Source: Arthrobacter rhizosphaerae (GTDB lineage Bacteria > Actinomycetota > Actinomycetes > Actinomycetales > Micrococcaceae). From it: a stretch of 64,000 bases of DNA. The translations under genes and the position numbers were made by a program. The notes beneath the pieces are model-generated. The model worked only from the letters and a program-made list of their open reading frames with translations. It was not told where the DNA came from and searched no databases. The DNA lies in the NCBI RefSeq assembly GCF_023062595.1, contig NZ_JALLAN010000001.1, forward strand, positions 372,001 through 436,000. The letters are read 5' to 3'. Below, piece after piece: positions 25,817 to 25,953 of this stretch. Positions within the stretch are counted from its first letter, which is position 1, and each line of letters opens with the position of its first letter.

Positions 25817-25876
25817 ATGGTGCGCGCAGAACTGCTCCTTCTTAGCTGCCGTGGCGAGGCCTCAGACGCAATCTAG
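25817..25876 (+). CDS. Leucine-rich leader peptide of leuA
   Basis: A 19-codon open frame, 78 bp before leuA. It begins with ATG GTG CGC GCA GAA followed by four consecutive leucine codons (CTG CTC CTT CTT, 25832-25843), then [10 protein letters not shown] and TAG. A run of codons for the pathway's end product just before a hairpin is the hallmark of ribosome-mediated attenuation. There is no clear ribosome site, so the transcript may be nearly leaderless. Not known to be a functional protein. Confidence 0.8.
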
Positions 25877-25898
25877 CTCAAGGCCACCCTCGCTGCGG
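25849..25898 (+). promoter_or_regulatory. leuA attenuator hairpin overlapping the leader peptide
   Basis: Bases 25849-25859 (CCGTGGCGAGG) can pair over 11 bp, including two G-U pairs, with 25888-25898 (CCTCGCTGCGG). The left arm encodes the leader codons just after the leucine run. A ribosome stalled on those leucine codons would cover this arm and prevent pairing. Similar leader arrangements upstream of leuA have been predicted in actinobacteria by comparative work. Whether the pairing acts on transcription or translation is not clear, as no T-run follows. Confidence 0.68.
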
Positions 25899-25953
25899 AG
25901 TTTGTGTTGCCCGGCCACCCTTTCATCAAGAACCAGAAAAGGCCACGATACTG

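Follow-up and report, generated by a model that had tools for sequence, protein, structure and literature searches.

Upstream of leuA in Arthrobacter rhizosphaerae lies a short open reading frame (ORF) with four consecutive leucine codons, followed by a potential RNA stem, and the question raised by this locus is what would sense leucine there and at which step leuA would be controlled. The analysis covered a window of 64,000 nucleotides, the whole stretch of DNA under study (contig NZ_JALLAN010000001.1, positions 372,001 to 436,000). The window element is one copy of the LEU element that Seliverstov et al. predicted for actinobacteria in 2005 (PMC1262725), lying upstream of leuA as that paper describes, and its leucine codons were proposed there to pair with the leuA Shine-Dalgarno (SD) site. 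That paper did not settle how actinobacteria control leuA; it doubted that the leader is the sensor and proposed a protein instead. Control of leuA is also relevant to amino-acid production in Corynebacterium, according to the available part of a review (PMC8709942). The following features enter the argument:

25808..25813, + strand: TACTGT, a −10 box of the TANNNT type, 6 nt before GTG 25820
25820..25876, + strand: leader ORF, 18 codons from GTG, then the stop TAG at 25874-25876
25832..25843, + strand: leucine codons CTG CTC CTT CTT, the presumed sensor, which in relatives fits the leuA SD region
25849..25859, + strand: 5′ arm of stem H1, CCGTGGCGAGG, within the leader ORF (codons 11-15 when numbered from ATG 25817)
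25882..25885, + strand: GGCC, a putative pseudoknot 5′ strand lying in the H1 loop, based on relatives and weak in the window
25888..25898, + strand: 3′ arm of H1, CCTCGCTGCGG, 3′ of the leader stop
25910..25916, + strand: CCCGGCC, the putative 3′ strand in that pseudoknot, with the GGCC beside the SD site as an alternative partner
25935..25942, + strand: leuA SD site, AGAAAAGG, read in the sequence
25954..27693, + strand: leuA, a 2-isopropylmalate synthase of 579 aa (TIGR00970, 841.4 bits, cut-off 697.4)

A leader with four leucines at codons 6-9, as an earlier note on this DNA had it, is evident on reading the sequence when codons are numbered from ATG 25817. The length of 19 codons given there holds in part: an ORF does run from ATG 25817 to the stop TAG at 25874-25876, but the conserved start is GTG 25820, which leaves 18 codons, for several relatives are without ATG 25817 and GTG 25820 is kept. 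Among 1000 dinucleotide-preserving shuffles of 25700-25953, 10 contained an ORF of 8-60 codons with four consecutive leucine codons, and none combined a leucine-run ORF with a perfect 11-bp stem; chance is thereby excluded for the leader, its four leucine codons and the 11-bp stem.

A search with LeuA gave a match in 95 of 99 genomes, which yielded 94 upstream regions from 93 genomes, as two were set aside for partial matches at contig starts (G069 and G098) and one (G033) gave two regions. By inspection, the LEU element is present in 92 of the 94. In family f4, leuA at L089 is without the element, and so is leuA at L090, where a stem that had been picked up lies inside the gene and was dismissed as spurious. 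With a covariance model whose only helix was H1 and which was trained on 53 of the 92, matches at E <= 0.001 turned up in 285 of 296 genomes of the class. Three of the 11 non-matching genomes (G309, G342 and G357) have this LeuA, with leuA apparently directly behind the upstream gene as read in the sequence; in the other eight, the LeuA match is distant or absent. At L185, L186 and L187, leuA stands without the element and apparently right behind the upstream gene, and the element seems to have been lost there along with leuA's own promoter region. Within a sample of the phylum, the model hit 23 of 198 genomes, and 17 of these belong to the same class. The six matches outside the class comprise two that precede leuA (L199 and L200), a doubtful one before a leuA-like gene (L204), and three before none of the reference genes (L201-L203), which were set aside as probably due to chance.

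In the pooled set of 184 loci, in which some genomes are present twice, the element occurs at 181, two loci being without it and one lacking a reference-gene match; loci from L095 onward were found by model matches and so are uninformative on the frequency of the element. Reduction at 0.90 similarity gave 103 sequences in 43 families. The closest named record among the matches listed, in a search from which the records of the window's own genome are possibly absent, is an Arthrobacter MAG (L229), whose LeuA is 98% identical and whose 160 bases upstream of leuA are identical to the window. LEU elements of their own also accompany divergent copies of leuA, with about 50-53% identity to that of the window (L094 from G033, L131, L134, L140, L205 and L206).

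The stem of 11 bp that the earlier note described, with its left arm at codons 11-15 and its right arm past the stop, is present at the same coordinates, and two of its 11 pairs in the window are G-U. Alignment of leuA upstream regions from relatives, which that note had suggested as a check on the stem, reveals covariation: across 53 sequences, 97.8% of 583 cells are paired, with changes on both sides at 6 of the 11 pairs (21 cells), and these values were equalled in 0 of 500 shuffles. Sliding the partner by 1-3 columns brought pairing down to 38-66%. The folding energy of the single window sequence carries no signal (z = −0.10) and is thus ordinary, so that the case for the structure depends on comparison. 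The stop codon ties the reading frame to the stem, since a stop in the frame of the leucine codons falls within the H1 loop in all 103 non-redundant relatives, as against 2 and 3 of the 103 for the other two frames. A second set of 26 loci (20 new, 6 re-read) has the stop in the loop in 26 of 26. Finding the element made use of the leucine codons, not of the stop. This comparative evidence, which is independent of the earlier work, favors a leader that is translated and whose codons matter, against the doubt voiced in PMC1262725.

The leader transcript is probably leaderless, starting at GTG 25820, because this conserved codon has a TANNNT box 6 nt upstream. Such a box lies 4-8 nt 5′ of an in-frame ATG or GTG in 77 of 103 relatives and in 40 of 43 families (1/103 and 0/103 for the other two frames), and the distance between box and start is 6-7 nt in 70 of 79 pairs. 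A consensus scan for strict two-hexamer promoters of the sigma-70 type returned no site in 25720-26020. A leader of the same kind in Streptomyces lividans is reported to be leaderless in the portion of PMC8079986 drawn on here.

Conservation of leucine at the level of codons is apparent in the leuA/leuC-type leaders, a set of 99 that includes one leuA-like paralog (L099). The final three codons are leucine in 97, 98 and 99 of them, respectively, and the third letter is variable at the first two; the leaders without Leu-Leu-Leu at these three positions are L066, L073 and L092 (3/99). The final codon before H1 (25841-25843 in the window) is CTT in 92 of the 99, and CTT makes up 2.8% of 1627 leucine codons in the leuA stretches of the same relatives and 14.2% of 380 leucine codons in nine genes of the window. 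Pairing with the SD site is not supported as a reason for the near-invariant CTT, the last leucine codon together with the 5-nt spacer being without coevolution with that site (z −0.99). Among 14 further leuA-type loci outside the 99, the leaders end in L-F-L at L221 and in T-V-L at L225. The latter (genome G142) belongs to a leuA-like paralog, 49% identical, with the leader end T-T-V-L. From a further search, of which the best 80 loci were listed, 79 were used, L267 being dropped because its contig begins inside leuA. A stem was called in 78 of these 79, the stem finder calling none at L255, and Leu-Leu-Leu plus a stop in the loop occurred in 70; stem placement may be a finder error at L251, L287 and L291, and the leucine run contains one non-leucine residue at L263, L264, L265, L278 and L284.

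Judged by the relatives, the stem noted first is probably one half of a pseudoknot. There, the loop of H1 matches the downstream strand of its own sequence more closely than strands exchanged between sequences (none of 5000 permutations was as low, n = 103; median z −3.88 with one sequence per family), and a helix of at least 6 bp can form in 86 of 103, compared with 64% of the swapped and 40% of the shuffled pairs. Across the relatives compared, the excess of predicted pseudoknot pairing is real but modest. The helix available in the window is of 4-5 bp only, which counts against a switch at this locus.

Every SD site resembles the complement of CUCCUU, so pairing with leucine codons is no proof in itself, and the SD region of each genome was for that reason compared with those of others. 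The leucine codons pair with their own SD region at a mean of −9.2 kcal/mol, versus −8.1 kcal/mol for swapped regions, and 0 of 5000 permutations were as good (n = 90; the set excludes leuB types and any gene further than 110 nt from H1, and gene starts are script estimates). When each family contributes a single sequence, the median z is −3.85 (41 families), and four control comparisons contained no such excess (median z −0.73, +1.97, +0.75 and −0.66). Judged by these swaps, the leucine codons coevolve with the leuA SD region in relatives. The predicted duplex is weak in the genus of the window (mean −5.3 kcal/mol, n = 60; −5.1 kcal/mol in the window itself), compared with a mean of −9.3 kcal/mol outside the genus (n = 104). 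Masking the positions that a stalled ribosome would occupy raised the mean unpaired value of the SD site from 0.35 to 0.42 (n = 90), the site becoming more open in 41 cases and less open in 17, and a control mask did almost as much (0.40, with a more open site in 33). For the window sequence the stalled-ribosome mask changed this value from 0.26 to 0.27, which likewise counts against a switch, and in minimum-energy folds of the window GGCC 25913-25916 pairs with the GGCC adjoining the SD site.

Second copies of the element reside before other genes. The seven before leuC (L123, L125, L126, L127, L128, L130 and L137) form one family (f19) and have leucine-run leaders. Twelve elements precede leuB(-ilvE) (L121, L136, L142, L168, L197, L198, L211, L212, L214, L219, L220 and L224), ilvE being detected within the fetched stretch at 7 of the 12 and the gene in L197 being identified as ilvE. 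Before H1 these leaders end in V-R-I-L, V-L-I-L, V-V-I-L, A-L-I-L, L-V-I-L or I-F-V-L, and every one of the 12 leuB leaders has valine or isoleucine at one or more of its final three codons, as against 1 of the 99 leuA/leuC-type leaders (2 of 113 when the 14 further leuA-type loci are added). Fisher's exact test gives 3e-15 with shared descent ignored; the 12 loci represent six families, with six loci from one of them, so that the leuB leaders may stem from few events and the exact probability is not meaningful. All three branched-chain amino acids are substrates of the enzyme encoded by ilvE, and valine, isoleucine and leucine codons in the leader therefore match a leuB-ilvE operon. The distance from H1 to leuB is 172-691 nt, and once 1601 nt (L211), for which reason masking of the SD site by the leader is ill-suited there.

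It could be, in a tentative reading that falls just short of being probable, that the element is a modular ribosome sensor in which H1, the pseudoknot and the stop provide a fixed chassis while the codons immediately preceding H1 are exchanged to suit each operon, with Leu-Leu-Leu before leuA and leuC and mixtures of leucine, valine and isoleucine before leuB-ilvE. Before leuA, the sensing codons would double as an anti-SD strand, so that the ribosome sensing leucine would also uncover the leuA start site. The words leuC, leuB, leuCD and leuD are absent from the main text of PMC1262725, and neither an element before leuC or leuB-ilvE nor such an exchange of codons is described in the open-access titles and abstract openings that the searches listed.

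The comparison of many relatives that supports H1, a frame with its stop in the loop, leucine at the codon level, the pseudoknot fit and the coevolution of leucine codons and SD region also points to the ribosome that translates the leader as the sensor. Translational attenuation is the most likely mechanism on this sequence evidence, and on balance the LEU element in the window is probably a switch gated by the ribosome, with the leuA SD site as its output. Transcription would start at the start codon of the leader, and a ribosome would load directly on the 5′ end. With ample leucyl-tRNA, the ribosome would pass the leucine codons, stop within the H1 loop and leave; H1 and the pseudoknot could then form, and the leucine codons, now released, could pair with the SD site of leuA, permitting little leuA translation. 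With leucyl-tRNA in short supply, the ribosome would wait on the leucine codons, and the leuA start site would remain open. With a footprint of the usual size, the waiting ribosome would cover the leucine codons and the first part of the H1 5′ arm. We infer that the ribosome stalls and what it covers, how the steps follow one another, which way control runs, and that the output is translation initiation. The ribosome-gated stem of the earlier note stands as regards H1 covariation, the placement of frame and stop, and leucine at the codon level; the membership in the LEU element, the probable leaderless start at GTG 25820, the likely other half of a pseudoknot and the fit between leucine codons and SD region in relatives had escaped it.

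Conceivably, the same leader and the same stalling could act on transcription instead, through Rho or a terminator lacking a U-tract and by way of either H1 plus pseudoknot or bared RNA. Although unlikely, such an output is kept open because the pairing of leucine codons and SD site is weak in the window genus and because the leuB(-ilvE) elements, which keep H1, the stop and branched-chain codons, are yet 172-691 nt or more from their gene. In addition, under total starvation C. glutamicum leuA and leuL transcripts are up at 5 min only in the available part of PMC6892785, whose analysis centred on a (p)ppGpp-free strain, and leuL is named a transcriptional attenuator in the review mentioned above, as far as its available text goes (PMC8709942). 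However, a transcriptional output would not need the observed coevolution of leucine codons and SD region, and no terminator-like site, and thus no classical terminator hairpin with its U-run, is found in 25720-26020, in agreement with the absence of a T-run after the stem that the earlier note had pointed out. The weak pairing in the genus is also consistent with an Arthrobacter variant, overlapping with the ribosome-gated switch, in which a local hairpin between GGCC 25913-25916 and the SD flank would mask the SD site and compete with the pseudoknot, and the leucine codons would serve only to block H1. This variant, which the minimum-energy folds favor and whose putative GGCC hairpin belongs to a genus too uniform for covariation to bear on it, is considered distinctly unlikely.

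The proposal of PMC1262725, in which a regulatory protein would bind the pseudoknot and the leader peptide would be incidental, is in line with the support for the pseudoknot across relatives. That paper further matched the species range of the element to a DEAD-box protein (ML1624 orthologs) and doubted leader translation from mutant data: leader mutations in S. coelicolor were unlike classical attenuation, its introduction mentioning some effect on leuA and its conclusion stating that leucine-codon mutations were without effect (Craster et al., 1999, is cited there and also mentioned in the consulted part of PMC8079986). A protein site needs no reading frame, and the conservation of codons and frame therefore argues against it: the stop is kept in the H1 loop only in the leucine frame (103/103 versus 2 and 3), leucine is kept while the third codon letter varies, and the codons become valine, isoleucine and leucine before leuB(-ilvE). 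A protein site with an incidental leader thus seems highly improbable, and sensing by the ribosome is favored over it, as far as aligned relatives can tell, because of the stop-in-loop frame, the fit of leucine codons to the SD site, and the valine and isoleucine codons before leuB.

No Rfam family, T-box included, reached its gathering score in the window and 12 related loci, and the one microRNA match from a permissive scan of 25700-26100, far below threshold, was taken as chance. Classical attenuators, such as those of trp and leu in enteric bacteria, have end-product codons and an RNA stem beside the leader. Compared with these, the window is without the terminator hairpin and U-run, and the proposed output is the SD site. 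Closer likenesses are found among actinobacterial leaders. LeuL1 of S. lividans, from another genus, has nearly the same core (LLLLSCRGE), is without a typical terminator and is leaderless, according to the part of PMC8079986 available. Leucine-rich leaders with the core LLLLRRGG also precede leuA in C. glutamicum (PMC8709942) and C. diphtheriae (PMC5784534); in the sections of these sources that were available, transcriptional attenuation is described for the former, and for the latter the peptide is listed and the transcription start could not be assigned. With the LEU element of PMC1262725, the window element shares the leucine-run leader ORF, H1 with a candidate pseudoknot, the proposed pairing of leucine codons and SD site, the position before leuA and the absence of an obvious terminator. 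It differs in the weak SD pairing and weak pseudoknot helix of the window genus. The present comparison also extends the LEU element to positions before leuC and leuB(-ilvE), and it favors the translated sensor that was doubted in 2005.
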